The notes under the pieces: model-generated | Told to the model about the DNA's origin: nothing | The model's input: the letters and a program-made list of their open reading frames with translations, nothing else | Databases searched by the model: none | Program-made: the position numbers and the translations under genes | In this document: piece after piece, positions 26,475 through 58,995 of the stretch | How the letters are laid out: each line of letters begins with the position of its first letter | How positions within the stretch are numbered: position 1 is the first letter of the stretch | Source of the DNA: Tyzzerella sp. | GTDB taxonomy: Bacteria > Bacillota > Clostridia > Lachnospirales > Lachnospiraceae | Direction: 5' to 3' | NCBI GenBank assembly: GCA_017410145.1 | Contig: JAFQRJ010000015.1 | Coordinates: 121,950-185,949, forward strand | Length of the DNA stretch: 64,000 nucleotides

Positions 26475-26532
26475 ATTTTGGTACAAAATATTGAAAATTT
26501 ATAGTAATGCAATAGATATGATTTTTTAGTAT
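26475..26532 (+). promoter_or_regulatory. AraC-type 21-bp repeat promoter, copy 1 (GH2 gene), degenerate
   Basis: ATTTTggtaCAAAATAT at 26475 and the matching block AATTTATAGTAATGCAATAG 21 bp later resemble the stronger copies at 32824, 38805, 46789 and 58937. A -10-like TAGTAT (26527-26532) lies at about the same distance. The match is weaker than in the other copies. Confidence 0.5.
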
Positions 26533-26569
26533 TATATAGATAGAAGGCATAGGAAAGAGAGGAATGATT

Positions 26570-28990
26570 ATGAACAGAATTGATTTGTGTGGCACATGGA
26601 ATTTCTATGACGAAGAGGGAAATTGTCATCAAGGAACGGTCCCAGGCTGCGTACACACAGATTTATTTTCTATGAGTGACATGTTTTGGGAAAAGAATTC
26701 GAAAGAATGTCAGTTTATAGAAATGCAGGACTGGACATATATGAAAGAATTCCAAATCGATGGAATTAGAGAAAACATGGAATTGGTCTTTGAAGGATTA
26801 GATACTTATTGCGATATTTATTTGAATGATATGAAAATTGGTTCTACTGAAAATATGTTTATACCACATACATTCTCGGTGGATGGCATCTTAAGGGAAG
26901 GAGACAATACACTGAAGGTGTGCTTTTTTTCTCCTATAAAAGCTGTGGAAGGAAAAGAGGCCCTTCCAGGGAATTTCACTACAGAACGTTTACATTCCAG
27001 GAGAATGCAATGTACATATGGTTGGGACTGGGTAGAACGGTTTGTAACTTGCGGAATATATAGACCGGTATATATTGTTTGTCATGAAAAAATGGAACTG
27101 GAACACGTATATGTATTTACCGACAACATTGATGAGTATAGTGCGCAGATAAAAATAACGGAGCATTTTAGAGGTTTTGAAACGGGTGCATTGGTAAAAA
27201 CAGAATTGATTAACCCAGAGGGAGAAGTCATTTACTGCAGCGAAACATGGTGTCAGGAAGAGGAAAGTGTTCTGTATTGTGACGTGGAAAATCCTAGACT
27301 TTGGTTTCCACACACCTATGGGGAACAGCCAATCTATACGTTAAGAATTACAGTTGGAGAGCAAGTGACCCACCAAAAATTTGGTATTCGAACGGTCAAG
27401 ATTTTGCAGTTGAAAGATAAGGATGAAAACATTATCAAACAATGCAAAGATTTGCAGCAGACAGCAAGTGGAGAAGCTTGGGATAAAAACGAAGAATATA
27501 CAGGATTTATTCTCCTTATCAATGGTGTTAGAATTTTCTGCACCGGTGCGAACTGGGTACCATGTGAACCATTTCCTTCTGCAGAAACAGAAGAAAAGAT
27601 GACAAAGAATCTGGAAATGGGCGTCCAGATGGGTATTAACATGCTTCGTGTCTGGGGTGGTGGCTTGTTTGAAAAGCAGCATCTTTATGATGAATGTGAC
27701 CGGCTTGGAATCTTAGTGACGCAAGACTTTTTAATGGCATGTGGAACATATCCGGAAACAGATGAAACTTTCCAAGAGCACTTACGAAAGGAAGCAGAGT
27801 TTGCAGCTATTTATCTTCGTAATCATCCAAGTTTGGTTTGGTGGACTGGCGATAACGAAAATGCTGTGTCCGGAGATGACACACAAGAAAATTACTGTGG
27901 AAGGCTTTCGGCACGCAAAGTGATTGCGCCTGTCCTTGAGAAATTAGATTACAATCGAAGGTTTTTGTTTTCATCTCCATATGGCGGAAATCCTTATTCG
28001 TCAAAAACAGCAGGAACAACCCACAACACAAACTTTCTTTGGTATATGTTTCAGTATTTTGCAAAAGAAGATTTGTCCGACTACCGAGAGTATTGGAAAG
28101 AGCATCTTGCACGTTTTATTGCAGAAGAACCGATTATGGGTGCAGTTTGCAAATGTTCCTTAGATGAATTTGTGTCTCCGGAAAATCAAAGTGACTATGA
28201 TATGTGGATACACCATTCACAAGGAAATCCTGGTCTTCCAAGAGAACTCTTTGATTATATGGATGATTTTACAAAGGGACTCTTTGGAGAATCTCAAGAT
28301 TTTGAAGACCATTATTTTAAAATGCGTTATCTACAATATGAGTGGGTTCGCTTCACAATGGGATATGCGCGAAGCAATCTCTGGTTTAATAGCGGAGTTG
28401 TGTATTGGATGTTTAATGATTGCTGGCCTGCATTTATGGGATGGGCTCTTGTGGACTATTATTTAAGACCAAAAGCAGGCTACTATGCAATGAAACATTA
28501 TGCAAAGCCAGTGGCAATCTATATTGAGAAAAATAGCACGGGATATCAGCTACATGTATCAAATATTGTGCCACAGTCAAACAAATGCACTGTGGAAGTG
28601 TTCGTGTTAAATCTGGTAACAGGCAAACGGGAAAAGATTCTGGAAGAAGAAATCACGGTATGTGAAGAAAGTGTTGCTAGAGACTTCAATCTGACATTGG
28701 GTGAGAATGAAATTTTAATAGCGGAGGCAAAGACGACGGATGGAGTACTACGTAATTGGTATCGCGAGGGTTCACCAAAGTTGGCAAAGACGTGTGATTT
28801 AAAATATCAGGTTGTAGACAATGGAGTAGAAGTATGGTCGGATACTTATACTCACGTTGTAGAAATCGAAAGAGCAGAAAAGATTAGTGATAACTATTTC
28901 TGTCTGCTTCCAGGAGAAAGAAGAACAATTACATTTGATAAAGTAATGGAAAAAGAAGTTGTGGTTAATGGATATACTTTTCTGATATAA
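26570..28990 (+). CDS. Beta-mannosidase, GH2 family
   Basis: The 806-residue product has the GH2 layout: jelly-roll sugar-binding domain (CGTWNFYDEEG, then VPGCVHTDLF), Ig-like domain, and a barrel with NWVPCEPFPS, MLRVWGGGLFE and WWTGDNEN, where Glu430 is the expected acid/base. The nucleophile region is RFIAEEPIMG near residue 519. C-terminal beta domains follow. WGGG and VPGCVHTD favour beta-mannosidase over beta-galactosidase. There is no signal peptide. ATG 26570 is preferred over 26564 because of spacing from AAGAGAGG. It diverges from the alpha-mannosidase operon; together they could remove alpha- and beta-linked mannose of an N-glycan core or mannan fragment. Confidence 0.93.
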   Translation: MNRIDLCGTWNFYDEEGNCHQGTVPGCVHTDLFSMSDMFWEKNSKECQFIEMQDWTYMKEFQIDGIRENMELVFEGLDTYCDIYLNDMKIGSTENMFIPHTFSVDGILREGDNTLKVCFFSPIKAVEGKEALPGNFTTERLHSRRMQCTYGWDWVERFVTCGIYRPVYIVCHEKMELEHVYVFTDNIDEYSAQIKITEHFRGFETGALVKTELINPEGEVIYCSETWCQEEESVLYCDVENPRLWFPHTYGEQPIYTLRITVGEQVTHQKFGIRTVKILQLKDKDENIIKQCKDLQQTASGEAWDKNEEYTGFILLINGVRIFCTGANWVPCEPFPSAETEEKMTKNLEMGVQMGINMLRVWGGGLFEKQHLYDECDRLGILVTQDFLMACGTYPETDETFQEHLRKEAEFAAIYLRNHPSLVWWTGDNENAVSGDDTQENYCGRLSARKVIAPVLEKLDYNRRFLFSSPYGGNPYSSKTAGTTHNTNFLWYMFQYFAKEDLSDYREYWKEHLARFIAEEPIMGAVCKCSLDEFVSPENQSDYDMWIHHSQGNPGLPRELFDYMDDFTKGLFGESQDFEDHYFKMRYLQYEWVRFTMGYARSNLWFNSGVVYWMFNDCWPAFMGWALVDYYLRPKAGYYAMKHYAKPVAIYIEKNSTGYQLHVSNIVPQSNKCTVEVFVLNLVTGKREKILEEEITVCEESVARDFNLTLGENEILIAEAKTTDGVLRNWYREGSPKLAKTCDLKYQVVDNGVEVWSDTYTHVVEIERAEKISDNYFCLLPGERRTITFDKVMEKEVVVNGYTFLI

Positions 28991-28994
28991 AAAA

Positions 28995-31217: not shown

Positions 31218-31229
31218 GAGGATTTACAT

Positions 31230-32753: not shown

Positions 32754-32823
32754 CTTACAATGAAACAAAGAATCTGCCAAATGTGCAATATAATTTCATT
32801 TATATTTCAGTTGTCAATTTGAA

Positions 32824-32882
32824 ATTTTTATACAATTTATTAGGATTTTCAAGCAATACATTTAAGTAGGCGATTTGATAAC
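32824..32882 (+). promoter_or_regulatory. AraC-type 21-bp repeat promoter, copy 2 (1937-residue protein)
   Basis: First half site ATTTTTATACAATTTATTAG (32824), second ATTTTCAAGCAATACATTTA (32845). The CAAT cores at 32833 and 32854 are exactly 21 bp apart. GATAAC (32877-32882) lies 23 bp after the second core and 41 bp before the start codon. No normal -35 exists; the second half site occupies that place. Confidence 0.8.
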
Positions 32883-32922: not shown

Positions 32923-35900
32923 ATGAAAAACAGAAAGTGGTTAAAAGTTTTTGTTTCGATCTTATGCATGCTGGCATTGCTGATTAGCAATCTCAGTCCT
33001 TTGTCTTGGGGCGGAAAATCCATTGACAAGGTGCAGGCAGCGGATTGGGATGGATTAACTGAACTTACATGGTCAGACTTTGGTATTGCTTGTGGAAGTG
33101 CATCAAATGATAAAAAAACGCTTTCATCAGGAAAAGATATCAATAACAGTTTGTTCAATGGAGATATTACTATGGCGGCAGGATCAGATATTCGATATCT
33201 TGGTAACGCAGATTATACAGGGCTGATTATTGCTGTAACAGATGCAGGCGCATTGAAGATGTCAACTGCTGGTGGATGGGCAAATTATCTTGGCTATGGA
33301 CTAGAATTCACGGCAGACACATTTGGACTGACAACCTTTGCAAATACTAAATTTAATCTCAAGATTGCAGTTACAGAATACACTACCAAATCTGCAACAT
33401 TTAGTGTTTATGTAAATGATCAGATAGTAGGAGAGCCTTTTTCCTATACAGCAGATAGTGCTATGGGAACCTATTTATCATTATATACAGGAACCATTGT
33501 ACCGGAGTATGTATTGCACGAACTTACATGGTCAGACTTTGGTATTGCTTGTGGAAGTGCATCAACTGATAAAAAAACGCTTTCATCAGGGAAAGATATC
33601 AATAACAGTTTGTTCAATGGTGATGTTACTATGGCGGCAGGCTCAGACATCCGATATCTTGGTAACGCAGATTACGCCGGGTTGATTATTGCTGTAACAG
33701 ATACTGGCACATTAAAGTTATCAACAGCTGCTACGTGGGCAGATTACCTTGGATATGGATTAGAGTTTTCAGCAGATACATTTGGACTTACAACCTTTGC
33801 AAACACCAAATTCAATCTCAAGATTGCAGTAACAGAATATACAACTTCATCTGCAAACGTTGAAGTATATGTCAATGACCAGATTGTAGGAGAGACATTT
33901 TCAATTGGTTCAGGTACTTTGGGGACTTATATGTCATTATACACGGGTACTATTGTACCAGAGTATGTGTTGCATGAACTTACATGGTCAGACTTTGGTA
34001 TTGCTTGTGGAAGTGCATCAAATGATAAAAAAATGCTTTCATCCGGAAAAGGTATAGATAACAGCTTGTTCAATGGAGATATTACTATGCAGGCGGGTTC
34101 TGATATCCGATATCTTGGTAACGCAGATTATACTGGGTTGATTATAGCTGTGACGGATGCTGGCGCATTGAAGTTATCAACAGCTGGTATGTGGGCAAAT
34201 TACCTTGGATATGGATTAGAGTTTTCAGCAGATACATTTGGACTTACAACCTTTGCAAACACCAAATTCAATCTCAAGATTGTAGTAACAGAATATACAA
34301 CTTCATCTGCAAACGTTGAGGTATATGTCAATGGCAAGATTGTGGGAGAGAAATTTACATTAGGTGAAGGAACCCTAGGGACTTATATGTCATTATATAC
34401 AGGCACTATTGTACCGGACAAAGCATCAGCTGAGACTGAATTACATGAACTCACATGGTCAGACTTTAATATTCCTTGTGGTGAGGTGTCAACTGCGAAA
34501 AATCAGCTTTCATCCGGAAAAGATATCAATAACAGCTTGTTCAATGGAGATATTACTATGCAGGCAGGTTCTGATATCCGATATCTAGGCAATGCAGATT
34601 ATACTGGGTTGATTATAGCTGTGACGGATGCTGGCGCATTGAAGTTATCAACAGCTGGTATGTGGTCAAATTATCTTGGAAACGGACTAGAGTTTTCAGC
34701 AGGTACATTTGGACTTGCAACTTTTGCCAACACTAAATTTAATCTCAAGATTGCTGTAACAGAGTATACAACTTCATCTGCAAAGGTTGAAGTATATGTC
34801 AATGACAAGATTGTGGGAGAGAAATTCACATTAGGTGAAGGTACCATGGGAACCTATATGTCATTGTATACAGGAATTGTTGAAGCAGATTATGTATTGC
34901 ATGAACTTACATGGTCAGATTTTGGTATTACTTGTGGAAGTGTATCAACTGAGAAAAAACAGCTTTCATCAGAAAAAGATATCAATAACAGTTTGTTCAA
35001 TGGTGATGTTACTATGGCGGCGGGTTCCGAGATTCGATATGCTGGAGCCGCAGATTTTACGGGACTTACTATTGGCGTTAATGCAAGTGGCAATTTAACA
35101 TTAGGAGCTGCTGCAATGTGGTCAGATGAACTTAATGGCACACAAGAATTTGCAGCAGCAACATTTAATATGGAAACATTTGCCAATACAAGATTTAATC
35201 TTAAAATAGCAGTGACAGAGTACACCACTCAATCTGCAAAGTTTAGAGTATGGGTAAATGATCAGTTAGTGAGAGAAATCTTTACAATTAGATGTACGGA
35301 TGCAAATTATCCGCTTGGAACTTATATGTCACTGTTTTCGGGAACAATTGAAGCAGACTATATATTGCATGAACTTACTTGGTCTGACTTTGGTATTCCT
35401 TGTAATGGACAGCAGACCAGTGTAAATGGTCAACTTGCTTCTGATAAAGAGATAAACAACAGTTTATTTGTTGGTGATGTAATTATGTCAGCTGATTCTG
35501 AAATTCGATATGCAGGAGCAGCAGATTTTACAGGACTTGTTATTGGTGTAAATGCTAGCGGTAATTTAACATTGGGAGCCGGTGGAATGTGGTCAAATGA
35601 ACTTGGTGGAACACAAGAATTTACAGCAGCAACGTTTAATATGGAAACATTCGCCAATACAAGATTTAATCTTAAGATAGCAACGACAGAATATTCCGAC
35701 CAATCAGCAAATTTTAGAGTGTGGGTAAATGGGCAGTTAGTGAGAGAAATCTTTACAATTAGATGTACGGATGCAAATTATCCGCTAGGAACCTATATGT
35801 CTTTGTTTAAAGGTAGCATCGACCCATCTTATACCAATGGTACATCTGTACCAATGGGACTTGCTGATTTGACATGGGAAGACTTTGGGTTCACATGTAT

Positions 35901-38794: not shown

Positions 38795-38804
38795 CATGTT
38801 TGGA

Positions 38805-38863
38805 ATTCTCATACAATTAATTAAGATTTTAAAACAATACATAAAGTAGCATGTTTTGTTAAG
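38805..38863 (+). promoter_or_regulatory. AraC-type 21-bp repeat promoter, copy 3 (1311-residue lipoprotein)
   Basis: Half sites ATTCTCATACAATTAATTAA (38805) and ATTTTAAAACAATACATAAA (38826), CAAT cores at 38814 and 38835 (21 bp). GTTAAG (38858-38863) lies 23 bp after the second core and 37 bp before the start codon. Confidence 0.75.
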
Positions 38864-46780: not shown

Positions 46781-46788
46781 AATTTGAA

Positions 46789-46847
46789 ATTTCCATACAA
46801 TTTATTAACATTTTAAGTCAATACAGTAAGAAGCAAGTTATGATAAT
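46789..46847 (+). promoter_or_regulatory. AraC-type 21-bp repeat promoter, copy 5 (GH127-transporter operon)
   Basis: Half sites ATTTCCATACAATTTATTAA (46789) and ATTTTAAGTCAATACAGTAA (46810), CAAT cores at 46798 and 46819 (21 bp). TGATAAT with GATAAT at 46842-46847, 23 bp after the second core, and 47 bp before the start codon. Confidence 0.8.
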
Positions 46848-46894
46848 ATTTTAATGTAATAGACTATAATGCAGACAGAAGGATGTTTTATAAA

Positions 46895-48661
46895 ATGAAG
46901 CGATTGTATGAGAATTCAATTAAAACCAAGGGCATTATGGATAAAGCTGTTTGGTTTGTAATTAACAATCAATTGAAGGATAAAAGTGCGTGGGAAACAT
47001 ACATCAATGTTTTTGCAAATAGTGAAGACGCGCAAGATGAAAGATGGCGTGGCGAATATTTTGGAAAACAGATGAGAGGTGCATGTTATGCCTATATGTA
47101 TGCGCAAGATGAGGAATTATACGATGTCTTGACATGGGCAAGTGAACGCCTCTTAGAGACACAGGATGAATTTGGGCGTATTTCTACATACACAACAGAA
47201 AACGAATTTTGCGGATGGGATATGTGGTGTAGAAAATATGTGCTAACCGGTTTGCAACATTATCTTCGCATTTGCAAGGATGAAAAATTAAAAGAGAAAA
47301 TCTTAATGGCTTGTTGCAGACACCTTGATTATATTATTGATAAAATCGGTGATGGTAAAATCGAGATTTCAACCACATCTAAATGGTGGGGTGCTGTAAA
47401 CTCTAGTACAATTCTTGAACCAACAGTTGAGTTGTATAAGATGACACAACATGAGAGATATTTGGATTTTGCAAAATATATCATTTCCAGAGGTGGAAGT
47501 AGCGATTGCAATCTGGTTAAGTTAGCTTTAGAGAATAAACTTATGCCTTATCAATATCCGGTAACTAAAGCATATGAGATGATGTCGTTCTATGAGGGCC
47601 TTTTGGCATATTATGAGGTTACGGGTGAGAGATTATATTTTGATGCAGCAGATCGATTCTTTGAGGCAGTTGCTAAGAGCGATATTACGATTATTGGTTG
47701 TTCAGGATGTACGCATGAATTGTTTGACCATTCGGCAATTAGGCAGACAGAACCAGCAGATAATATTATGCAGGAGACATGTGTTACAGTTACATGGATT
47801 CGTGTTATGGCGAGAATGTATCTCTTAACGCAAGATGCAAAATACATAGATAGAATTGAACAGTCAGGATATAACGCATTGTATGGCAGTCTTAACACAA
47901 AGAGTTGCAAACAATTAGAGTTGGAGTCACGGGAATATCTGCAACCCAAAACATTTGACAGTTATTCACCGCTTTATATGAATACTCGTGGTCGTGGTGT
48001 TGGGGGGTATTTAAAGTTTTTGAATGGAGAGTATGGCGGTTGTTGTGTTGCAATAGGAGCTTGCGGTATTTCTCTGATACCACTTACAGCAGTGATGTAT
48101 GACGAGAAAAACATCTATATCAACCAACAATTTAATGGTGAAGTTGTAGTGGAAGATGTGGATGGACAGGAAATTAAACTGGAATTTACCAGTGATTATC
48201 CGACGAAAACGACATGCAAGGTAACTGTTCGTTGCGAAAAAGAAAGTTCTCTGTATTTTAAAATCAGAAAACCTGGTTGGTGCGAGACAATGATTGTGAA
48301 TGGCGAAAGCATTCAGTCAGAAGGATATTTCAAAATATCCGGTCGATATCAAGATGGTGACGAGATTGTATTTACATGGCCAGTAACTCTGAAAGTACAT
48401 CGGTTGAGTGAGAAAGTAGCGTTTACGTATGGTGCGATTACTTTAGCATGCGACACTGCAAAGAGCGAAAGAGATATCAAGGCACCGGTGATTGTTTCCG
48501 ATGAACCTGCTTATCAAGTTCTTGTTCCAGAAAAAGATGAACTTGTAAGAATAGAGTGTGACACATATAATGGTAAAATCTTGCTTACGGATTATCAATC
48601 CTGTGGTAAAGATTGGTTGTCAGAAAAGAATATCATAACCGTTTGGTTAAACACAAAGTAA
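46895..48661 (+). CDS. GH127-type beta-L-arabinofuranosidase (DUF1680)
   Basis: The 588-residue product has a helical (alpha/alpha)6 barrel followed by beta-sandwich domains (FKIRKPGWCETMIVNGE), the GH127 build. Two sequence spots match the zinc-thiolate active site known from HypBA1: ETC at Glu294-Cys296 (Glu338/Cys340 there) and GGCC at Cys383-Cys384 (Cys417/Cys418 there, the first being the nucleophile). There is no signal peptide, so it acts inside the cell on imported oligosaccharides. ATG 46895 follows AGAAGGA by 11 bp. It is the first gene of an operon with the sugar importer, so its substrate is probably what that importer brings in. Related GH families (GH142, GH146) cannot be fully excluded. 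Confidence 0.82.
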   Translation: MKRLYENSIKTKGIMDKAVWFVINNQLKDKSAWETYINVFANSEDAQDERWRGEYFGKQMRGACYAYMYAQDEELYDVLTWASERLLETQDEFGRISTYTTENEFCGWDMWCRKYVLTGLQHYLRICKDEKLKEKILMACCRHLDYIIDKIGDGKIEISTTSKWWGAVNSSTILEPTVELYKMTQHERYLDFAKYIISRGGSSDCNLVKLALENKLMPYQYPVTKAYEMMSFYEGLLAYYEVTGERLYFDAADRFFEAVAKSDITIIGCSGCTHELFDHSAIRQTEPADNIMQETCVTVTWIRVMARMYLLTQDAKYIDRIEQSGYNALYGSLNTKSCKQLELESREYLQPKTFDSYSPLYMNTRGRGVGGYLKFLNGEYGGCCVAIGACGISLIPLTAVMYDEKNIYINQQFNGEVVVEDVDGQEIKLEFTSDYPTKTTCKVTVRCEKESSLYFKIRKPGWCETMIVNGESIQSEGYFKISGRYQDGDEIVFTWPVTLKVHRLSEKVAFTYGAITLACDTAKSERDIKAPVIVSDEPAYQVLVPEKDELVRIECDTYNGKILLTDYQSCGKDWLSEKNIITVWLNTK

Positions 48662-48690
48662 GTCTATAAATATTTAGGAGGAGAAAAAAC

Positions 48691-50367
48691 ATGAAAAGAA
48701 AATCAATTATTACACTTGCAATGGCAGCAATATTGGCGTTATCGTCGATTTCTCTTACCGGTTGCGGTAATGGCGGTGGCAGTAAGGCAGATGCAACCAA
48801 GACACATTTATCGGTTTTGAATTATGATGGGGGAATTGGTTCAGAATGGCTTAAAAGAGTAGCAGAAAGATTTGAAGCAAAATATGCTGATGTTTCATTT
48901 GAAGAAGGAAAAAAAGGTGTTGTTATCGACATCACCAATAATAAAAACGACGGTTCTGAAGGTGTAACAAATACTTCTTTTGCAGTATGGTTTTCAGAAA
49001 GTAACGCATACAATGACTTGATTGCTTCAGGACAGGTTGTTGAAATCACGGATATTGTGACAGAGTCTTTGTCAGACGCATCTAACGGTGCAGAAACAGG
49101 GACAATAGAAGATAAATTGTCTGAAGCACACAAAGAGGCTATGACAGCAATCGACGGAAAGTATTACTGTCTGCCACATTATGAAGTGTATACAGGTCTT
49201 GTTTATGATGTGGACTTATTTGATGAATATGGATATTATTTCAGTGAAACTGGCAACTTTACAAATGTAGCAGAAGAAAAGACAGTTGGACCAGATGGTG
49301 TTAGGGGAACAAAAGATGATGGTCTGCCATCTTCCTATGAAGAATTATATACGCTGATGGACCAAATGGTAGCTGATGGTGTAACTCCATTTACATGGGT
49401 AGGACAACATGAAAATTATGCGAATGACTTGTTTGCAGGACTTCAAGCAGCTTATGCAGGAAAAGATGAACTTTTGTTAAATGTTACATTTGACAGTAGT
49501 GCATCAAATACCCAGGCCACTATTGTTGAGTTTGAAGGAAATAAAGCAGTAGAGAAGAAAGTAGACATTAATAGCCAAAACGGATATTTGATGTCGCAAC
49601 AAGCTGCGAAATATTATGCATATGAATTATTTGAAAAAATCATGTCTAGTGATAGTTACCACACGAAGTTGGATAAATCAACTTCTCACTTAGACACGCA
49701 AGAAAAATTCATCTTAAGTAGTTTGAAAGCGGGAGAAAGTCCGATTGCTATGATGATTGAAGGTAGCTATTGGTATAATGAAGCAACAGAAGCGTTGAAA
49801 CGTTCTGTAAACACATACAAAGAACAGGCAGAAGGAAGAAGATTCGGTTGGATGCCACTTCCGGTACAATATTCTGGAAGTGTAACAGAAGGTAATGGAC
49901 GCAAAAACACGGTGTTGGAAACATTGAATTCCTTCGCATTTATCAATGCAAGATACAAAGATGATGAAGCGATTTGTAAACTTGCCAAACTGTTCTTACA
50001 ATTCTGCTACACAGATGAATCATTAGTTGATTTTTCTATTACGACAGGACTTCCAAAAGGTGTTAATTATACTATTCCGGAAGATAAATTGGCAGAAATA
50101 GACAACTATTTCCAAAGAGATTTATTAGAGACAAAGATGAATTCAGATGTTGTTTACCCATACTCTGCACATCCTATTTTTATAAACGATCAAGGAAATT
50201 TCATGTTCCAACAGGGTTCAGAGTTCTGGGCTGCAACAATTGATGGCGAAAAATTTGCTAATTATTTTGCAGCAAACAAAGTTGGAATTACAGCAAAAGA
50301 GTATTTCGTTAATGCTGCAATTGATAAAAAAACATGGGAAGAAAAGTACGGTGAATTTTTAAAATAA
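48691..50367 (+). CDS. Sugar ABC transporter, substrate-binding lipoprotein
   Basis: The 558-residue product has lipobox SLTGC (Cys25) and a large periplasmic-binding-protein fold typical of the carbohydrate uptake CUT1 family, longer than the usual 420-450 residues. Features include HLSVLNYDGGIGSEWLKRVA after the signal, LPHYEVYTGLVYDVDLFDEY and FGWMPLPVQYSGS. The larger size suits binding of oligosaccharides. AGGAGGAG precedes the start. It is 29 bp after the GH127 gene and followed by two permease genes. Confidence 0.9.
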   Translation: MKRKSIITLAMAAILALSSISLTGCGNGGGSKADATKTHLSVLNYDGGIGSEWLKRVAERFEAKYADVSFEEGKKGVVIDITNNKNDGSEGVTNTSFAVWFSESNAYNDLIASGQVVEITDIVTESLSDASNGAETGTIEDKLSEAHKEAMTAIDGKYYCLPHYEVYTGLVYDVDLFDEYGYYFSETGNFTNVAEEKTVGPDGVRGTKDDGLPSSYEELYTLMDQMVADGVTPFTWVGQHENYANDLFAGLQAAYAGKDELLLNVTFDSSASNTQATIVEFEGNKAVEKKVDINSQNGYLMSQQAAKYYAYELFEKIMSSDSYHTKLDKSTSHLDTQEKFILSSLKAGESPIAMMIEGSYWYNEATEALKRSVNTYKEQAEGRRFGWMPLPVQYSGSVTEGNGRKNTVLETLNSFAFINARYKDDEAICKLAKLFLQFCYTDESLVDFSITTGLPKGVNYTIPEDKLAEIDNYFQRDLLETKMNSDVVYPYSAHPIFINDQGNFMFQQGSEFWAATIDGEKFANYFAANKVGITAKEYFVNAAIDKKTWEEKYGEFLK

Positions 50368-50398
50368 TTTGAGCAACTTGAGGTGAAAGGAGATTTTT

Positions 50399-51331
50399 AT
50401 GAAGCCAAATAAGAAACGTAAAAAAATGGGTAGAGGGAAAACCATATTTTATTGGAGCATACTTGCTTTTCCACTTTTGCAATTTATAATCTTTTATGTT
50501 GGTGTGAATTTAAACTCCTTTGCACTTGCATTTCAAAAATTTGATTATTCAGGCAATGGTTATACATTTGTAGGATTTGAGAATTTATTCCAGAATTTTT
50601 TAGATGTGTTTAAAGAATTTCAGGAAGCAAAATACCTACAAACGGCAGTATGGAATTCCGTATTGGTGTTTATTCTTGGACTTGTTATTGGTTTGTCACT
50701 TGGTTTACTGTTTTCATATTACATATATAAAAAATGCGCTTTGAGTAAATTTTATAAGACCATTTTATTTTTACCTTATATTATTTCAAGTATTACGTTA
50801 GTTATTATTTACAAATATTTTGTTGAACAAGCAGTTCCTGAAGTTGTTTTGAAACTATTTAACATTGAAATGGATGGTTTGCTTAGTAATCAGAACACAG
50901 AATTCGGCGCAATCTTATTTTTTACCATATGGACGGGGTTTGGAGTGCAAACGCTTATCTATAGCAGTTCAATGAGTGGTATTTCCAATGAGATTGTCGA
51001 AGCCGCTAAGATGGATGGCATAACACCATTGAAAGAATTTTTGTTTATTGATATTCCGATTATTGCTCCAACAATTTCAGTGTTCGTCGTATCAAGTGTA
51101 GCCACATTGTTTGTAAATCAGATGAATTTGTTTAACTTTTATGGTGCGGAAGCGCCATATGGTATATATACCATTGGATACTACATATATCGTGGAGTTT
51201 CTGCTGCCGGAACAACATTATCAGATTATCCTTATTATGCTGCATTTGGTCTTGTAATGACGATGATTACAATCCCTATTACATTGATTGTAAGAAAAGT
51301 AATGAATAAATTGGATCCAAACGAGGGGTAG
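50399..51331 (+). CDS. Sugar ABC transporter permease, MalF type
   Basis: The 310-residue protein has six predicted membrane segments beginning with IFYWSILAFPLLQFIIFYVG and a coupling-loop EAA motif near residue 200 (EIVEAAKMDGITPLKEFLFI, then DIPIIAPTISV). It pairs with the permease encoded 7 bp downstream to form the channel of a CUT1-type importer. AAAGGAG lies 8 bp before ATG 50399. Confidence 0.93.
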   Translation: MKPNKKRKKMGRGKTIFYWSILAFPLLQFIIFYVGVNLNSFALAFQKFDYSGNGYTFVGFENLFQNFLDVFKEFQEAKYLQTAVWNSVLVFILGLVIGLSLGLLFSYYIYKKCALSKFYKTILFLPYIISSITLVIIYKYFVEQAVPEVVLKLFNIEMDGLLSNQNTEFGAILFFTIWTGFGVQTLIYSSSMSGISNEIVEAAKMDGITPLKEFLFIDIPIIAPTISVFVVSSVATLFVNQMNLFNFYGAEAPYGIYTIGYYIYRGVSAAGTTLSDYPYYAAFGLVMTMITIPITLIVRKVMNKLDPNEG

Positions 51332-51338
51332 ATGGCGT

Positions 51339-52214
51339 ATGAAAAAAAATAAAATATCTATATTAAATATATTGTTATTTGCTATTTTAGCAATCTATTC
51401 TATCAGCATGATTTTTCCGATGTTCTGGGCTTTGATTACGTCAGTGAAAGAACAATATGACTTCTTAGATAATGTTTTAGGCCTACCGGTTAAAGTTATA
51501 ACTGAGAACTTCGCAACGGTTATTAAGTATTTTGAAGTACCGGCACAACAAGGTGATGTACAGGTGTTTCACGGTTTTTGGCAAATGTTTTTAAATACGA
51601 TTTTATACGTAGGCGGTTGTTCTTTGACAGCGACACTGATTCCGTGTATCACTGCATATGCAACTGCAAAATTTCCGCAAAAGAAGATGAGCTCGATTAT
51701 TTATGGTATAGTTATCGTAACAATGATGATTCCGATTGTAGGTTCTTACCCAGCGGAAATCGATATGTTACAGAAACTCGGTCTATATAACACATTAGTG
51801 GGTACTTGGATACAAAAAGCAAATTTCCTTGGGATGTATTTCTTGGTATTTCATGCAGCATTTAAGGCCTTGGCAAAGGACTACTCAGAGGCTGCTGAAA
51901 TTGATGGTGCAAGCGAGTTTACCGTAATGACAAGAATTATGTTGCCATTAGTAAGGAATGCTTTCTTCACAGTATTTCTTGTGAAGTTTGTGGAATTTTG
52001 GAATGATTATCAAATGCCACTGTTGTATTTACCAAGCAGACCTACACTTTCTTTTGGTCTGTATTATATTTCGAATAATACTGCTAATATGATAAGTACA
52101 GTTCCAATGCGTATGGCAGGATGTATTATCATATTAATACCGATTGTTGTTATATTTACCATTTTTAGTGATAAACTGATGGGTAATATTACTTTAGGTG
52201 GGGTAAAAGGATAA
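51339..52214 (+). CDS. Sugar ABC transporter permease, MalG type
   Basis: The 291-residue protein has about six membrane segments, opening with LNILLFAILAIYSISMIFPM, and the EAA loop YSEAAEIDGASEFTVMTRIM followed by LPLVRNAFF. The operon encodes no ATPase, so the importer must borrow a shared one of the MsmK/MsiK type from elsewhere in the genome, which is common in Firmicutes. Confidence 0.93.
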   Translation: MKKNKISILNILLFAILAIYSISMIFPMFWALITSVKEQYDFLDNVLGLPVKVITENFATVIKYFEVPAQQGDVQVFHGFWQMFLNTILYVGGCSLTATLIPCITAYATAKFPQKKMSSIIYGIVIVTMMIPIVGSYPAEIDMLQKLGLYNTLVGTWIQKANFLGMYFLVFHAAFKALAKDYSEAAEIDGASEFTVMTRIMLPLVRNAFFTVFLVKFVEFWNDYQMPLLYLPSRPTLSFGLYYISNNTANMISTVPMRMAGCIIILIPIVVIFTIFSDKLMGNITLGGVKG

Positions 52215-52236
52215 ACCAAGAAAGGAAGAAAATGCA

Positions 52237-55221
52237 ATGAATAAGAAGAAAGTAGTGATAGGAGCCGTTCTTGCATGTATCTGTGTCGCATTGGCTGTTG
52301 GATTTTTCAATGTCAATTCATTTGCTGAAAAAGCAAGCATTGTTGATTGTGATATGGAATCCAAATACAATCATGGCGAAGAATTTGTGATGCCTGACGG
52401 AAAAATTTCCTATAAGGGAAAAGAGAAAAAAGCAGATAGCAAATATGTTGTTTTTCCATCAGGAAAAGCAAACGAAAGTGAAAAGATTGTCTTATCTGAA
52501 AAAGGAAAATATGAGATTGTATTTAAAGCGAAATTTAATGGTGTGACTGTGTCTGCAAAGAAAGAGTTCATTGTTAGCAAATCGCTACTAGATGTTCAAA
52601 ACAATAATTCAACGGCCAAGATAGATGAGGGAAAAATCAAAGTAAATTTGGCTACAGATGATGTTTTTACTTATAATGAAGTTTTGGATTTGACTCAATC
52701 ATCAACCGATGATCCGCTAATTGATTTGGAACTTAATCCAAATGCGATTGGAACAGCAGATGTAACACGGTTTAAAATTCGCTTAACGGATTTATATGAT
52801 GAAAATAATTATGTCACGATTAGTGTAAACAACTATCCGGAAGCTTGGGCAAACGGTGTTGCATACATTACTGCGGGAGCAGCAAATCAGCCACAAGTCG
52901 GAATCGAAAATGTAGACAATCCGGAAAAAACAAGTATCAAAATAAACGATATTTATGGCTATGGTGCAGCAGTAAACTTCTCTTTGGTTGGATTACCAAA
53001 CACTGATTTGGATACTCATTTAAAACTTTATTTTGATTATGAAGAGCGAGCGTTTTATGCAGACAGAGAAGCTTATAGTGGTGGTCAACAACGTATTGTA
53101 GTAGACTTGGATGATAAAAATATTTTTGGAGATGATATTTGGTCAGGCTTTACCAGCGGCAAAGTGAAAATGTCCATTTTCGGAACAAATTATCAAGCAC
53201 CTACGCTTAATTTCATGATATCAACAATTAATGGAAACAGTGAATTTGATGATAAGGGTGATGTGAATGCACCGCTTATTACTATTGATTCAGAATATGA
53301 TTTAGATAAATTACCAAATGCATTAGTTGGTAAACCATATAAGGTATTTGATACACATGCAGTGGATGTTTATGATGGGAAAATAGATACAGTTGCATCT
53401 GTATATTACAAGTATTATTCGGAAAAACCAGTAAAAATGTCATTGACAGATGGTAAGTTTACTCCTAATAAAGAAGGAACATATGTTATTGAATATACAG
53501 CGACTGACTTGTCTGGTAATGTAGCTACAGAGTTTGTTGAAGTTCAGGCAATCAAGGGTGATGGAGTGCAGGTTGAATTAAAGGATGTTGCTACTGAAAC
53601 GAACACAGGTGTTCCTGTGAAGCTTCTTTCTAGCGTTGATTATACAAATCCATCAGGAAATGTAAAGTATTCAGTAAAAGCAAAACACAAATCAACAGAT
53701 GAAGAAATTAAAATTGACAAAGATACAATGGAATTTATTCCTATGACGGACGGCGAGTGGGAAGTTGTTGTTACTGTGAAAGATTATATATCTACAGTAA
53801 AGAAAACTTTTGATATCAAGGCAAATCACACAACACAACCGCAAGTATATGATAATGTAGCTGTACCAAAATATTTTATTGTGGGTGCGACCTATGACAT
53901 GCCTAATAGTTACGGATATGATTTCACATCCGGAAAGGGTGTAAAGGCTGACATGGATTTGTTTGTCACAGAAAACGGAAGTACTGAAAAGCAAATAGAA
54001 AAAGGTCAGTATATTCCGGAAAAGGCGGGTAATGTTACTCTTACCTATCGATTGACAGTTGATGATAAAACTTGTGAGCGTTCTTATGCGGCTACAGTTG
54101 TTGATATTGGATACACGGGCAATCTAGAACTTGCTAAGATGTTTGTTGCGACAAATGGAAATGCCACAGCAGAAAGCAGCAATACTTCTATTACTTATAA
54201 TATTGGAAAAGATACAAAATTGGATTTTGTGAATTATGTTCAAACAAAAGAATTCACATTCTCTTTCCAGGTTGGCGAGAAAAATGCTTATAACAGAATT
54301 AATATTTATTTGACTGATATTATCAGCGGAAAACAAGTGAAATTGTCATATAGAAAAACGGCGGATGGCACTGTGTTTAATGTGAATGATGGTTCAGATG
54401 TGAAAGTAACATCCACATTTGATGACTTAAACAGAAACTTTGCTTTGGAATTTTACAATGATAGACATCTTGTATCGCCGGATGCAGATATAAATGTTGA
54501 GGTAAAACAATTCCTTGATGGTAGTAAATTTGAAGGATTTACAGACTCGGTTGCTTTATTTGCAGTTGAAATTGAAGGTGTTTCAGGTGCATCTCAACTC
54601 ATCGTAAATAATGTAAATGGACATACTATGAACTCATCAAGAATGGATAGATTTGCACCACAGATTCTTGTGGAAACAAAAGCCGGTGACAGAGGAAAAG
54701 GTGAAAAGGTTGAGTTAAAAGGTGCATTTGCTTACGACGTTATCGATCCGATTTCAAAAATGACATTAGATGTAACAGATCCGGATGGCAAGTATGTTAC
54801 AGATGAAAATGGTGTTGTTCTTGATGGCACACAGGATCCGACGCAGGATATTGTTTTTGATTTGAATAAATATGGTGATTTTACTATCAGATATGTGATA
54901 GCAGATGGTAGGGGTACTACAGACACATATGTTTATGCTATTACGGCAAAAGATGTTGCAAGACCATCAATTGAAATTAAGAAGCATAAAGAGACTGCGA
55001 AAAAGGGTGCAACAGTTAAGGTGGCCGAAACTGAAGTGGAAGATAACATATCAAAAGAATGTACAGTGGAGGTATATGTATTCGATCCGGAAGGCATCAA
55101 TGTCGATGTAATTGACGGTGCATTTGAGGCAACCAAGGCAGGGGTATATACTGTAAGATATATTGCATTTGATGAAAATGGAAACTGTGCGTTTGCTTCC
55201 TATGAAATTGTTGTAAAGTAG
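52237..55221 (+). CDS. Large secreted protein with Ig-like (DUF5011/HYR-like) repeats
   Basis: The 994-residue product has an N-terminal signal or anchor (VVIGAVLACICVALAVGFF, residues 6-24). Ig-like domains with the pattern EGTYVIEYTATDLSGNVAT near residue 410 and AGVYTVRYIAFDENGNC near the C-terminus recur, with looser copies between (GEWEVVVTVKD, YGDFTIRYVIADGRGTT). Two other segments, near residues 150-340 and 640-800, look like jelly-roll beta sandwiches (VTRFKIRLTDLYDENNYVTI and YNRINIYLTDIISGKQVKL). These could bind glycans. I see no catalytic motif. It lies in the importer operon, 22 bp after the second permease, so a cell-surface capture role next to the transporter is likely. Confidence 0.8.
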   Translation: MNKKKVVIGAVLACICVALAVGFFNVNSFAEKASIVDCDMESKYNHGEEFVMPDGKISYKGKEKKADSKYVVFPSGKANESEKIVLSEKGKYEIVFKAKFNGVTVSAKKEFIVSKSLLDVQNNNSTAKIDEGKIKVNLATDDVFTYNEVLDLTQSSTDDPLIDLELNPNAIGTADVTRFKIRLTDLYDENNYVTISVNNYPEAWANGVAYITAGAANQPQVGIENVDNPEKTSIKINDIYGYGAAVNFSLVGLPNTDLDTHLKLYFDYEERAFYADREAYSGGQQRIVVDLDDKNIFGDDIWSGFTSGKVKMSIFGTNYQAPTLNFMISTINGNSEFDDKGDVNAPLITIDSEYDLDKLPNALVGKPYKVFDTHAVDVYDGKIDTVASVYYKYYSEKPVKMSLTDGKFTPNKEGTYVIEYTATDLSGNVATEFVEVQAIKGDGVQVELKDVATETNTGVPVKLLSSVDYTNPSGNVKYSVKAKHKSTDEEIKIDKDTMEFIPMTDGEWEVVVTVKDYISTVKKTFDIKANHTTQPQVYDNVAVPKYFIVGATYDMPNSYGYDFTSGKGVKADMDLFVTENGSTEKQIEKGQYIPEKAGNVTLTYRLTVDDKTCERSYAATVVDIGYTGNLELAKMFVATNGNATAESSNTSITYNIGKDTKLDFVNYVQTKEFTFSFQVGEKNAYNRINIYLTDIISGKQVKLSYRKTADGTVFNVNDGSDVKVTSTFDDLNRNFALEFYNDRHLVSPDADINVEVKQFLDGSKFEGFTDSVALFAVEIEGVSGASQLIVNNVNGHTMNSSRMDRFAPQILVETKAGDRGKGEKVELKGAFAYDVIDPISKMTLDVTDPDGKYVTDENGVVLDGTQDPTQDIVFDLNKYGDFTIRYVIADGRGTTDTYVYAITAKDVARPSIEIKKHKETAKKGATVKVAETEVEDNISKECTVEVYVFDPEGINVDVIDGAFEATKAGVYTVRYIAFDENGNCAFASYEIVVK

Positions 55222-55231
55222 GTGAAAAAAT

Positions 55232-57139
55232 ATGAAAAAATTACGTCGACTATTAATATTTATATTGGTTACTGCCTTTGCTTTGGGAAGCGTGGGATGT
55301 TCCCCGGATAAAGAAGCATCAAACAATGGTTTAACTGCTGTAAAAGGAAAGTATCTTGTAGATGAAGGTGTATCGAAATATAAAATTGTTGTTCCAAAGC
55401 AGGAAAGTGGTTTGATAACAATTGCTACTTCGGAATTTAACAAGTTCTTTTCGGAATCAACGGGAGTAACGCTCCCGGTGGTTACCGATGATGAGATAAA
55501 AGATGGGGATAAATATATCTCTATAGGAGAAACCACACTTTTAAAAGAAACAGATATTACTTATGAATTTGACGAGCTGGGTAGAGATGGTTATAAGATT
55601 GTCACTAAGGGTGATAACCTGTATCTAATCGGTGGAGATGAATATGGCTCTTTGTACGCTGTGTATGAATTGCTTGAATATCTCATCAATTATGATTTCT
55701 TTGCTGAAGATTGCTATACACTTGCAAAAGGTGTTACCCAGATTCCATTATATCAATTTGACTTAACTGATATCCCAGATATCGATTATCGAATTGCAGC
55801 TGATGGGATTGTTATAGGAGATACTTACACGCTTTATCGATTGAGACAAAGACCAAACAGTGAAATGTTCGTTACTGTGAAAAATCAGTGGACACATAAC
55901 TCCTTGGAGTATGTACAAGATGCACCGGAGGCAAATGCAAACTGGTACAATCGAGACAAAACTCAATTATGTTATACAGCTCACGGCGATGAAGCAGAGT
56001 ATAAGAAACTGTTAAATGCTTGTTTCACTACCATGAAAGAGGAATTAATAAATACTCCTGACAGAACATCGATTATGCTTACAAATGAGGATAATTATGA
56101 TGTGTGTGAATGTGATGCATGTAATAAAATAGTAGAAGAATACGGTGCAATATCGGCATCAATCATTCTATTTATCAATGATTTAAATGCCATGGTTAGA
56201 GAGTGGTTTGAGACAGAAGAAGGAAAACCATACGCAAGAGATTTAAGAATTGTATTTTTCGCATACACCGGTTATGAGGCTGCTCCGGTAACTTATAATG
56301 CAGAAACTGATGAATATAAGCCGAATAAAGGTATTCATCTTGATGAAGGTGTGTATTGTCAGCTTGCTATCATTAAGAACGATTATTATCGAACAATGAC
56401 AGATAAAGCAAATGCAGAATATTATAAAAATTTACGTGGTTGGTCTGCGTTGGCTGGAGAGAATCTGTATCTCTGGCTTTACAGTACAAACTTCTCTTAT
56501 TATCTAGCGCCTTACGATTGCTTTGATTCGTTTGCTGAAAGTTATCGTTTAGCAGCAGATCTTAATGCATTTTATATGTTTGATCAACGTCAGACTGATG
56601 AAAGAGGCGTGTTAACCGGTTGGTCATATTTGAAATCATATATTTGCAGCAAATTAGCATGGGATGCAAATCAAGATATAGGAGAGTTAACTGATAAATT
56701 CTTCGATGGGTATTTCGGACCAGCTTCTTCCGATATGAGAGAAGTATTTGACCAGTTGCGTACTCTTACAAATTATAATAAAGAGCATAATGAATTGGGA
56801 GGCGATTCGTCTATCTATTTGCAACTTGCTTCAGATACTTATTGGCCGAAAGATGTTCTTGAACGTTGGCTTGATTGTTATGACAAAGCAGAGAAAAGCA
56901 TTGCAAGCTTAAAAGAAGATAATCCTGAGGTGTATCAAAAATATCACGACCATATTATGGCAGAAAAACTGTCAACATTGTATTTGTATGTAGAATGTTA
57001 CAATTTCAATACAAGTGCAGATATAATTGATGCATATAAGGCAGAATTTAAAGAAATTGCTGACTACTTTAATATATCTCAAGTCAGTGAAGGGAAAAAT
57101 ATATCGAATCTCTACGACAAGTGGGGAATGGAATACTAA
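55232..57139 (+). CDS. DUF4838-type lipoprotein, probable glycan-active enzyme
   Basis: The 635-residue product has lipobox SVGC (Cys23). Residues about 45-160 look like the small alpha/beta domain that precedes GH20 and GH67 catalytic barrels (KYKIVVPKQESGLITIATSE, YGSLYAVYELLEYL). The rest matches the DUF4838 pattern: NRDKTQLCYTAHGDE, MLTNEDNYDVCECDACNKI, and a late WSYLKSYICSKLAWD followed by ELTDKFFDGYFG. The CxCxxC segment is typical of this group. DUF4838 proteins are linked to polysaccharide use but the reaction is unknown to me. It is 10 bp after the Ig-repeat protein gene and followed by a terminator. Confidence 0.82.
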   Translation: MKKLRRLLIFILVTAFALGSVGCSPDKEASNNGLTAVKGKYLVDEGVSKYKIVVPKQESGLITIATSEFNKFFSESTGVTLPVVTDDEIKDGDKYISIGETTLLKETDITYEFDELGRDGYKIVTKGDNLYLIGGDEYGSLYAVYELLEYLINYDFFAEDCYTLAKGVTQIPLYQFDLTDIPDIDYRIAADGIVIGDTYTLYRLRQRPNSEMFVTVKNQWTHNSLEYVQDAPEANANWYNRDKTQLCYTAHGDEAEYKKLLNACFTTMKEELINTPDRTSIMLTNEDNYDVCECDACNKIVEEYGAISASIILFINDLNAMVREWFETEEGKPYARDLRIVFFAYTGYEAAPVTYNAETDEYKPNKGIHLDEGVYCQLAIIKNDYYRTMTDKANAEYYKNLRGWSALAGENLYLWLYSTNFSYYLAPYDCFDSFAESYRLAADLNAFYMFDQRQTDERGVLTGWSYLKSYICSKLAWDANQDIGELTDKFFDGYFGPASSDMREVFDQLRTLTNYNKEHNELGGDSSIYLQLASDTYWPKDVLERWLDCYDKAEKSIASLKEDNPEVYQKYHDHIMAEKLSTLYLYVECYNFNTSADIIDAYKAEFKEIADYFNISQVSEGKNISNLYDKWGMEY

Positions 57140-57144
57140 AACAA

Positions 57145-57180
57145 TAAGGTAGTCTTCAGTTAAAGGGGGCTACCTTTTTT
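57145..57180 (+). terminator. Terminator inside or after the importer operon
   Basis: AAGGTAG and CTACCTT pair around a loop and are followed by TTTTTT. The next gene starts 18 bp later with no visible promoter, so partial read-through is likely. Confidence 0.8.
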
Positions 57181-57197
57181 CAACAGGAGATACTATT

Positions 57198-58928
57198 ATG
57201 GCAATAAAAATTATTCCGACTTTAAACAATAAAGACAATTATGTTTTCATTCCAGCATGTTGCTATGCGGGAAATCAGTTTCATGTTTTGAAATATAGCT
57301 ATCCACCGCTGTTTAAACCTGATAATGCAAGAATTGATATGCCAATTACAATTTCAGATGTTCCAAGACTTGAACCTGACGGTAGTGGAAAGATTGAAGT
57401 GACCACGGGCGATGCAGCGACGCCATGCATTGGTGTGTTTTCGCCTTCTGAAAAAAGAGGTATTCTTGTTTTTACGGTACAACAGATTAATGGTAAAAAT
57501 GTTGGTCTTGCATATGAAGATGGAGAAATTCGTCTCACATGGCCTGCAAAGAGAGAAAAAGTGTATCGTATGTGCTGTATGAGTGACAATGAGACCCAGT
57601 GGGTTGATGAACCAGCAGAAATTCCGTGTCAAATATTGGATTTTGCTTGCGAGAGTTTATCGCAGTTTTACCGAGTATTTTTTGAAAATCGCAAGATTAT
57701 GGGCTTGGACTGTCAACGACCGGAGCCACTGCCATATGATAAACAATTCGAGATCCAGCGAGACAAATTCAATACGATGAACTGGAATGAGAGTTTGGGC
57801 ATATACCAAGTTGGGACTACAGACCATCGTTTTCAGGTGTGGCAGCCTGGATGGGTTGGTGGAGCTATGAGTGGATATCCGCTTATGAAATTAGGGGGAG
57901 AAATTGAATTTGAACGTCAGATGAAAACGTTATCTTTCTTGTTCTCAACTCAATGTGAAAGTGGATTTTTCCATAGCGTGGTTGATAAAGATGGAAATTC
58001 GTTTGGTGATGGATTAGATATGAAAGGTGCTGAACATTGGCATTTGATACGCAAATCTGCGGATGTGCTTTATTTTCTCTTTAAGCATTTCAAGTTAATG
58101 CGAGAGAAAAATATTGAAATTCCATATGATTTTGTGCAGGGGGCAAAAAAAGCAGCAGACGGTTTTGCCCGGTTGTTTAATAGGTATGGACAATTTGGTC
58201 AAATTGTCGATGTGCATACAGGAGAAATTTGTGTAGGTGGTTCTACTTGTGGAGCTATTGCACCCGCAGGATTAGCAGAAGCTTATCGATTTTTTGGAAA
58301 TCCTGAATATTTGCGTGTGGCACGAGAAAGTGCAGAAGCTTATTATCAGAATTCATTGTGTGAAGGATATACTACCGGTGGTCCAGGCGACATGCTTCAA
58401 TGTGTTGACTCCGAAAGTGCTTTTGGTCTTTTGGAAAGTTTTGTTGTTTTATACGATGTTACCAATGAAGAAAAATGGCTTAAGTATGCGAAAGAAAATG
58501 CACATTATTGTAGTAGCTGGGTAGTAAGTTATAATTATCTTTTCTCAAGTGATAGCGAATTTGGTCGGCTTGGAATGAAGACGGTAGGAAGTGTGTTTGC
58601 AAATCTTCAAAACAAGCATTCAGCTCCTGGCATTTGCACATTGTCAGGCGATAGCATATACAAACTATGGAAATGGACTGAAGATCCGTTATATCTGGAA
58701 CTTATTAAAGATATTGCGCTTACAATTGGGCAGTATATGTCTACAGATGAAAGACCGATTTACGATTGGGAACTTGAGGCGTCTCGCATGCCACAAGGGT
58801 TTATCAATGAACGTGTAAATATGTCCGATTGGGAAGGGCCGGATAAAGTAGGCGGCGTATTTAATGGAAGTTGTTGGTCGGAAACAAGCAATCTGCTTGT
58901 ATTAGCAGAAGTTTTACAATTATTCTAG
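57198..58928 (+). CDS. Cytoplasmic protein, probably a six-hairpin (alpha/alpha)6 glycosidase-like enzyme
   Basis: The 576-residue product has no signal peptide. The first 170 residues look like a beta-sandwich (VPRLEPDGSGKIEV, GVFSPSEKRGILVFTV). The remainder has the periodic helices and Gly/Trp-rich loops of six-hairpin glycosidases: YQVGTTDHRFQVWQPGWVGG, AEHWHLIRKSADVLYFLF, GTCGAIAPAGLAEAYRFFG-like stretch, and GICTLSGDSIYKLWKWTEDPLY. I cannot assign a GH family. It lies after the terminator of the importer operon; CAGGAGATAC is its ribosome site. Confidence 0.7.
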   Translation: MAIKIIPTLNNKDNYVFIPACCYAGNQFHVLKYSYPPLFKPDNARIDMPITISDVPRLEPDGSGKIEVTTGDAATPCIGVFSPSEKRGILVFTVQQINGKNVGLAYEDGEIRLTWPAKREKVYRMCCMSDNETQWVDEPAEIPCQILDFACESLSQFYRVFFENRKIMGLDCQRPEPLPYDKQFEIQRDKFNTMNWNESLGIYQVGTTDHRFQVWQPGWVGGAMSGYPLMKLGGEIEFERQMKTLSFLFSTQCESGFFHSVVDKDGNSFGDGLDMKGAEHWHLIRKSADVLYFLFKHFKLMREKNIEIPYDFVQGAKKAADGFARLFNRYGQFGQIVDVHTGEICVGGSTCGAIAPAGLAEAYRFFGNPEYLRVARESAEAYYQNSLCEGYTTGGPGDMLQCVDSESAFGLLESFVVLYDVTNEEKWLKYAKENAHYCSSWVVSYNYLFSSDSEFGRLGMKTVGSVFANLQNKHSAPGICTLSGDSIYKLWKWTEDPLYLELIKDIALTIGQYMSTDERPIYDWELEASRMPQGFINERVNMSDWEGPDKVGGVFNGSCWSETSNLLVLAEVLQLF

Positions 58929-58936
58929 CAATTGAA

Positions 58937-58995
58937 ATTTTCATACAATTTATTAGGATTTTGAGTCAATACATTTAGTAGTTTAGCGTGATAAT
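58937..58995 (+). promoter_or_regulatory. AraC-type 21-bp repeat promoter, copy 6 (small peptide and cohesin-like gene)
   Basis: The clearest copy: ATTTTCATACAATTTATTAG (58937) and ATTTTGAGTCAATACATTTAG (58958), CAAT cores at 58946 and 58967. GATAAT (58990-58995) lies 23 bp after the second core, as in copy 5. The start codon of the small peptide gene is 83 bp downstream. Confidence 0.82.

Follow-up and report, generated by a model that had tools for sequence, protein, structure and literature searches.

The window analysed here is a stretch of 64,000 nucleotides from a Tyzzerella sp. of the Lachnospiraceae (contig JAFQRJ010000015.1 of assembly GCA_017410145.1, positions 121,950 to 185,949). 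It lies at the end of contig 14 of an assembly of 1,890,112 bases in 32 contigs that is 67.8% complete. Six promoters in the window carry a two-part direct repeat, at 26475, 32824, 38805, 45342, 46789 and 58937, exactly where a preliminary description of this DNA had placed them. They stand ahead of genes for a GH2-type glycosidase, two giant proteins, a broken GH36 enzyme, a putative GH127-importer operon and a small peptide. Among the scanned window proteins we found two of the AraC family, encoded at 44335-45228 and 28995-29786, and the fourth copy of the repeat lies in the divergent region of the first. We consider it highly probable that a single AraC-family activator, with the 44335-45228 protein as the likeliest candidate, uses all six sites as its operators. 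The copies were aligned in one register, with offset 0 at the first A of ATTTT, and the features of the proposed system are the following.

26469..26516, + strand: operator copy 1, with a weaker proximal half, upstream of the GH2 gene (alignment; distal half exact in the assembly search)
26530-26535, + strand: -10 of copy 1, TATTAT, without TGn
32818..32865, + strand: operator copy 2, strong (alignment, assembly pattern search)
32879-32884, + strand: -10 of copy 2, TAACAT, preceded by TGA
38799..38846, + strand: operator copy 3, strong (alignment, assembly pattern search)
38860-38865, + strand: -10 of copy 3, TAAGAT, preceded by TGT
45336..45383, + strand: operator copy 4, with a degraded proximal half, between the AraC gene and the broken GH36 gene (alignment)
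45397-45402, + strand: -10 of copy 4, TAAAAT, preceded by TGT
46783..46830, + strand: operator copy 5, strong, upstream of the GH127-importer operon (alignment, assembly pattern search)
46844-46849, + strand: -10 of copy 5, TAATAT, preceded by TGA
58931..58978, + strand: operator copy 6, strong, upstream of the 42-aa peptide gene (alignment, assembly pattern search)
58992-58997, + strand: -10 of copy 6, TAATAT, preceded by TGA
44335..45228, - strand: AraC-family regulator and proposed factor, with a cupin-type N-terminal domain and a C-terminal helix-turn-helix (HTH) domain (Pfam HTH_18, AraC_binding)
45262..45290, - strand: promoter-like site of this AraC gene, TTGAAA-17-TATAAT, a consensus match only (11/12)

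The proximal half-site begins 21 base pairs (bp) after the distal one, and the CAAT cores are indeed 21 bp apart in the four strong copies (32824, 38805, 46789 and 58937). The form ATTTT-n4-CAAT, which had been attributed to all six copies, holds for these four, but the two weak copies read otherwise: ATTTTGGTACAAA / AATTTATAGTAAT at 26475, where the proximal half is weak, and ATTTTTGTACAAA / ATTAAAAAAAAAT at 45342, where it is degraded. The distal half-site TTGAAATTTTNNTACAA (15 fixed bases) is exact in both weak copies, with one mismatch in copy 46789 and two in copy 38805, and TACAA occupies its positions +7 to +11 in all six copies. Conservation also reaches upstream of offset 0, where TTTGAA, ATTGAA or TTTGGA stands at -6 to -1, and the linker sequence between the repeat and the -10 varies among copies. 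When half-site self-identity is summed over the six copies, the maximum falls at 21 bp (57, the next value being 44), and this is the sole peak in each of the four strong copies; taken singly, 26475 gives a tie of 21 with 23 bp and 45342 a peak at 16 bp. The most degraded proximal half-site, that of copy 45342, stands ahead of the broken GH36 gene, as expected for a dead target; this one case is suggestive and no proof alone.

The distance from the repeat to the -10 is also fixed. As previously described, the strong copies have hexamers (GATAAC, GTTAAG, GATAAT and GATAAT) at offset +53, counted as 23 bp from the start of the second CAAT; the hexamer shared by the copies nevertheless stands two bases further downstream, and in six copies rather than four. 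Indeed, TAnnAT is found at offset +55 in 6/6 copies (TATTAT, TAACAT, TAAGAT, TAAAAT, TAATAT and TAATAT), at any other offset from 38 to 79 in no more than two of the six, and at 11 of 930 positions in the flanks. The TGn of an extended -10 precedes the +55 hexamer in 5/6 copies, and matches to TATAAT, summed over the six, amount to 26/36 at +55 and 23/36 at +53. None of the six has the -35 near TTGACA of an ordinary sigma-70 promoter for its +55 hexamer: at 16-19 bp the best match is 3/6 in each, in line with the missing -35 of the preliminary description. An exception arises at copy 45342 if a second TAAAAT (45404-45409, 7 bp downstream of the first) is used. The consensus promoter scan, which left out copies 1-3 and was overall no richer than shuffles (86 vs 81.9), places TTGATA (45380) 18 bp ahead of it (10/12), and this promoter may thus be independent of activator help.

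The full site is restricted to this cluster in the assembled genome. The assembly contains four exact instances of its pattern (18 fixed bases), every one within the window; the next best are five other places with three mismatches each, and the reversed control also gives five matches at three or fewer. The distal half-site matches exactly at only four places in the assembly, each belonging to one of the six copies; both weak ones are among them. Elsewhere it occurs at three places with one mismatch, and at up to two mismatches the count is 39 places vs 20 for the reversed control. With a looser direct-repeat pattern, the four strong copies show 0-1 mismatch; the single further match, with two, lies inside an open reading frame (ORF). 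No match with fewer than two mismatches was found in the nine other searched genomes of the genus. Seven weaker motif matches were inspected, six in this genome and one in another (G001): five lie inside ORFs, one at an ORF end and one is intergenic, and their best full-matrix score is at most 1.5, vs 59-79 for the six copies. Scanned across the assembled part of the genome, full sites are thus confined rather than scattered, which bears out the earlier proposal of a local regulon. The genes concerned are these.

26564..28990, + strand: GH2-type glycosidase, 808 aa (Pfam)
32923..38736, + strand: giant protein 1, its start moved to the ATG after the promoter (ORF; start re-read from the sequence)
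38901..42836, + strand: giant protein 2, with a weak Big_2-like segment (Pfam, sequence)
45474..46780, + strand: broken GH36 gene, pieces only (Melibiase and Glyco_hydro_36C pieces in separate ORFs)
46883..58928, + strand: GH127, substrate-binding protein, two permeases, 994-aa protein, DUF4838 protein and 576-aa protein (Pfam, NCBIfam)
59078..59206, + strand: 42-aa peptide gene downstream of copy 6 (sequence)

Gene order suggests that the GH127-importer genes form one operon. For giant protein 1, Pfam gives only DUF3126 and DUF4397, neither with a passing stretch. The sole recognised segment of the 994-aa protein (52237-55221) in the NCBIfam search is a weak OmpL47-type one below the cut-off. 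At E<=1e-60, a strict threshold that its own-genome paralogue barely passes, this protein has no other relative in 397 genomes (own included). When used to look for clusters akin to this one as a whole, it gave only two copies, both in this genome, and was abandoned for that purpose.

Which AraC protein reads the sites? Motif scores were compared over the regions upstream of 18 AraC-type ORFs in this genome; the region of 44335-45228 is by far the best, because it contains copy 4. With a matrix built without copy 4, its distal half still reaches 19.0 bits; the next region has 10.6 under the full matrix, the other regions not having been rescored with the copy-4-free one. In the nine other searched genomes of the genus, the best AraC match is 67 bits, vs 635 for the window protein. 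A search of genome contigs for close relatives of this protein was of little use, with one weak match.

Near relatives in other genomes carry a matching element beside their own genes. The searches scored the best 15 or best 6 candidates per genome. In 150 genomes of the family, none of the matches listed exceeded 98.3 bits except a paralogue in this genome, on contig C11; in 391 genomes of the class, 14 (own included) match at E<=1e-30 among the candidates scored, giving 16 foreign places, whose loci were all fetched. Ten of the 16 carry an element divergent from the AraC gene (loci L190, L191, L193, L194, L195 and L197-L201). The first half-site resembles A..ATT.TACA, with TTTGAA or TTTGGA directly before it in 5/10; a second, TAC or CAC, follows 21 bp on (22 in L193), and a -10, TATAAT or TAAAAT, stands at +54 (+55 in L193). 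A spacing of 21 bp from TACA to TACT occurs in seven cases, vs a mean of 0.16 and a maximum of 3 in 500 shuffles that preserved base content only, not dinucleotides; on the opposite strand, a single pair of this kind was seen over all spacings from 8 to 60. In L187 (184 bits), the best relative, the neighbouring gene is a GH127 gene 43% identical to that of the window, and ahead of it stands an element whose -10, a 4/6 match, is at +54. Ranked with the distal matrix of the window alone, the element comes 1 of 32404 positions in L194, 2 in L195, 2 in L199, 5 in L200 and 10 in L191.

Two further traits accompany the element. TG[AG] at -4 to -2, which was outside the patterns used to search near and distant relatives, is present in 6/6 window copies, 11/11 near relatives and 9/10 distant ones. 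In the window protein the first recognition helix is SRS[STC], as it is in 8/10 aligned relatives with the element, vs 0/4 without it, in an alignment that left out L192 and L200 (of the same genera as L189 and L199). Altogether, these observations favour the 44335-45228 protein, as the preliminary description had supposed.

Several points weigh against the proposed explanation. A third of the genome is absent from the assembly, and in two copies the +53 hexamer is closer to TATAAT than that at +55 (5/6 vs 4/6). Without copy 4 in the matrix, the proximal half is unremarkable in the 44335-45228 region, with 8.0 bits there and up to 9.2 in other regions. The elements of the ten relatives were chosen partly by eye, L199 and L200 are from one genus, and L197/L198 and L195/L201 are close kin, so that the relatives' counts are not independent. 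No element was seen near 5/16 relatives (L188, L189, L192, L196 and L202), and a strict whole-locus scan gives 0.5 matches per locus vs 0.23 in shuffles, a weak excess. With the window matrix, the distal half of L187 is number 8 among 9866 positions, which is not significant alone. The window-only distal matrix attains p<=0.05 in just 6/17 regions, and the L198 hit among these is not the element. The second half-site is CAATACA in the window vs TACTAT in most relatives. Finally, the divergent region of the C11 paralogue is without a clear second half-site, and its helix reads SAS, not SRS.

The paralogue is also central to the alternative that survives best, which we regard as improbable though worth weighing: the sites would be genuine AraC-type operators, but their factor would be the C11 paralogue, the second AraC protein of the window, or one encoded in the unassembled third. 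The genome holds 26 AraC-like matches. The C11 paralogue is 63% identical to the 44335-45228 protein, with an HTH region that is 70% identical across the C-terminal 102 residues, and its divergent region contains the fourth-best distal half-site of 71682 positions on the contig; cross-regulation by it may occur. However, its gene stands at its own paralogous GH127-importer cluster, from which it is divergent, whereas it is 44335-45228 whose divergent region contains copy 4, the same placement as that of the element in the ten relatives. The matrix of the four strong copies, tried on contig C11, gave a best score of 4.6, vs 59-64 for the copies themselves. The second AraC protein is disfavoured: its gene (28995-29786) adjoins genes for xylose isomerase (TIGR02630) and xylulokinase (TIGR01312), both above cut-off, on which it probably acts locally, and the upstream region of the gene has a low score for the six-copy motif. 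The region 29787-29885, between it and xylA, holds a different element, TGCAAGAATTGTCT..TTTTTAT.ATTATATG.CGAGA, which also occurs in the divergent region of a 47%-identical relative (L115, genome G039) and is probably an operator of this protein. In L115, the divergent gene differs from xylA, as judged by eye. The genes at 29886-32753 had first been read as rhamnose genes, a reading replaced by the NCBIfam assignments to xylose isomerase and xylulokinase.

Far less probable is that the protein at these sites represses. The proximal half-site overlaps the -35 position, and a bound protein could block the polymerase there. Nonetheless, in Caldicellulosiruptor, sites of single-component AraC-family regulators upstream of mapped promoters are read as activator sites (PMC8579813). 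The lack of a usable -35 (3/6 at best), together with a weak extended -10, moreover points to a promoter in need of help, copy 4 perhaps excepted.

LytTR regulators likewise use direct repeats about 21 bp apart, and binding of these repeats by a LytTR-type response regulator can be given hardly any weight: elements of this geometry accompany AraC genes, and no LytTR match was found in this genome, which is 68% complete, by a search that matched in 5/14 control genomes. Just as little credit goes to a recent duplication of promoter segments with no selection acting on their pattern. The long identical runs common to four copies speak for it, but conservation is a mosaic: among the strong copies, pairwise identity is 0.85 and 0.79 in the half-sites and 0.85 in TGn plus -10, vs 0.30 in the linker, 0.48 just after the -10 and 0.24-0.31 further out. 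Conservation of half-sites and -10, and not of linker and flanks, therefore argues against recent duplication and is, as read from these alignments, the trace of a protein-and-polymerase site under selection.

Coming back to activation by the 44335-45228 protein, the class II AraC geometry of the preliminary description is supported: a direct repeat of about 21 bp, a proximal half at -35, a fixed -10 distance and an AraC-family gene in the locus. Beside what was computed, namely the sites, their spacing, the common -10 position, the cluster restriction and the matching element by relatives, we infer binding, activation and an inducer, activation because of the poor -35, the position of the site and published practice for the AraC family (PMC8579813, PMC6205950). 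An AraC dimer would bind both half-sites in direct repeat, 21 bp apart and on one helix face. The proximal half-site would occupy the place of the -35, from where the bound protein would recruit RNA polymerase, which would engage the extended -10 (TGn-TAnnAT), weak by itself. A sugar from the glycan would probably bind the cupin-type domain and switch the protein on, and expression of GH2, both giants, the GH127-importer operon and the 42-aa peptide would then be coordinated. The presence of GH127 suggests a glycan bearing L-arabinofuranose as the source of the inducer.

This arrangement has known counterparts. The E. coli araI1-I2 and XylS-type class II operators likewise have tandem half-sites at a distance of about 21 bp, of which the proximal occupies the -35; the window differs in half-site sequence and by having an extended -10 and no good -35. 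AraC-family L-rhamnose regulators of Bacillales, Bacteroides and Enterococcus also govern a local sugar regulon through a direct-repeat motif of 21-bp periodicity and group-specific sequence (PMC3870299), so that the arrangement itself is ordinary; the genes are other ones, and this comparison leaves aside half-site letters, -10 distance and extended -10. CphR of Rhodococcus is a constitutively expressed AraC-type activator with two direct repeats (-35 to -49 and -55 to -69), of which the proximal shares two bases with the -35 (PMC6205950). Its repeats differ from the window site, being 20 bp apart and reading TGCA-N6-GGNTA, and it responds to 4-chlorophenol or phenol. The likeness to AraC sites of Caldicellulosiruptor bescii is one of architecture: tandem repeats upstream of promoters (theirs mapped) and local carbohydrate regulators in Firmicutes (PMC8579813). 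In a limited literature search we found no paper on these operators in this bacterial family. What is less ordinary is the apparent link of recognition helix, half-site letters and -10 type across families of the class.

Indeed, distant AraC proteins of other genera, 18-23% identical to that of the window, have the same architecture with other half-site letters. TTGT and GCAA at the 21-bp-repeat distance were found in 9/29 of their divergent regions (shuffle mean 0.09, maximum 1, 500 shuffles, again preserving base content only); among the near relatives, the architecture was seen in 10/16. The stricter pattern TTGTAC-N18-TGCAAGA occurs at 32 sites in 30/150 genomes, vs 11 sites for the reversed control. 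Of the 30/32 sites with a fetched locus, 11 lie by a divergent AraC gene (six loci already in the earlier relatives sample, five new), and all 11 have a -10 of 5-6/6 at +54 or +55, vs 0/19 of the others with a best -10 of that quality there. A self-identity repeat search over 31 AraC upstream regions was discarded: it did not single out 21 bp in most of them because the half-sites are degenerate, whereas counts of fixed short words did single it out. TGn precedes the -10 in 5/6 window copies, 8/11 near relatives and 0/10 distant ones. These operators suggest that spacing and -10 distance are held, and that half-site letters, -10 type and helix change together, a link that rests on a few tens of loci. 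It is conceivable, if somewhat doubtful, that an operator grammar is common to the cupin-AraC regulators of the class: approximately TG[AG]-n-A-n3-T-n-n-TAC, a 21-bp repeat and a -10 at +54/55, with the dialect set by the first recognition helix. One dialect would pair an SRS[STC] helix with TTTGAA..TACA and an extended -10; the other would pair an S[ESKDQ]SHFM[KR]FFK-like helix with TTGTAC/TGCAAG and no extended -10. In that case, it would become possible to deduce from protein sequence which regulons many orphan AraC genes control.

Within the locus, the GH127-importer operon, the two giants, GH2 and the small peptide are tied into one predicted response. The 994-aa and 576-aa proteins, the giants and the peptide, which have little or no recognised family, are thus open to study as parts of one glycan programme. 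The pattern suggested by the relatives' operators makes target prediction for AraC proteins in Clostridia directly testable.

Some minor observations concern the relatives and neighbouring genes. In L190, L193, L194, L195 and L197-L201 the -10 runs on as TATAAT[GA]CAAG, like the proximal half-site of the distant group. In L191 (9167-11257) the AraC relative is divergent from a gene for a PFL-like glycyl-radical enzyme (Pfam, L191 only), and the N-termini encoded by the divergent genes of L194, L197, L198 and L200 resemble this enzyme by eye. The paralogous cluster (contig C11, 1497-22158) encodes GH127, two permeases, a DUF4838 protein, a tyrosine-phosphatase-like protein, a 2201-aa giant and others; its 987-aa protein is a homologue of the 994-aa protein, 27% identical. 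The 42-aa peptide (59078-59206), for which NCBIfam gave no match, has a stretch rich in glycine and glutamate. Finally, a Glu/Gln-type tRNA synthetase is split over the overlapping ORFs 62140-62964 and 62954-63820 (+ strand) by a frameshift, either real or from the assembly.

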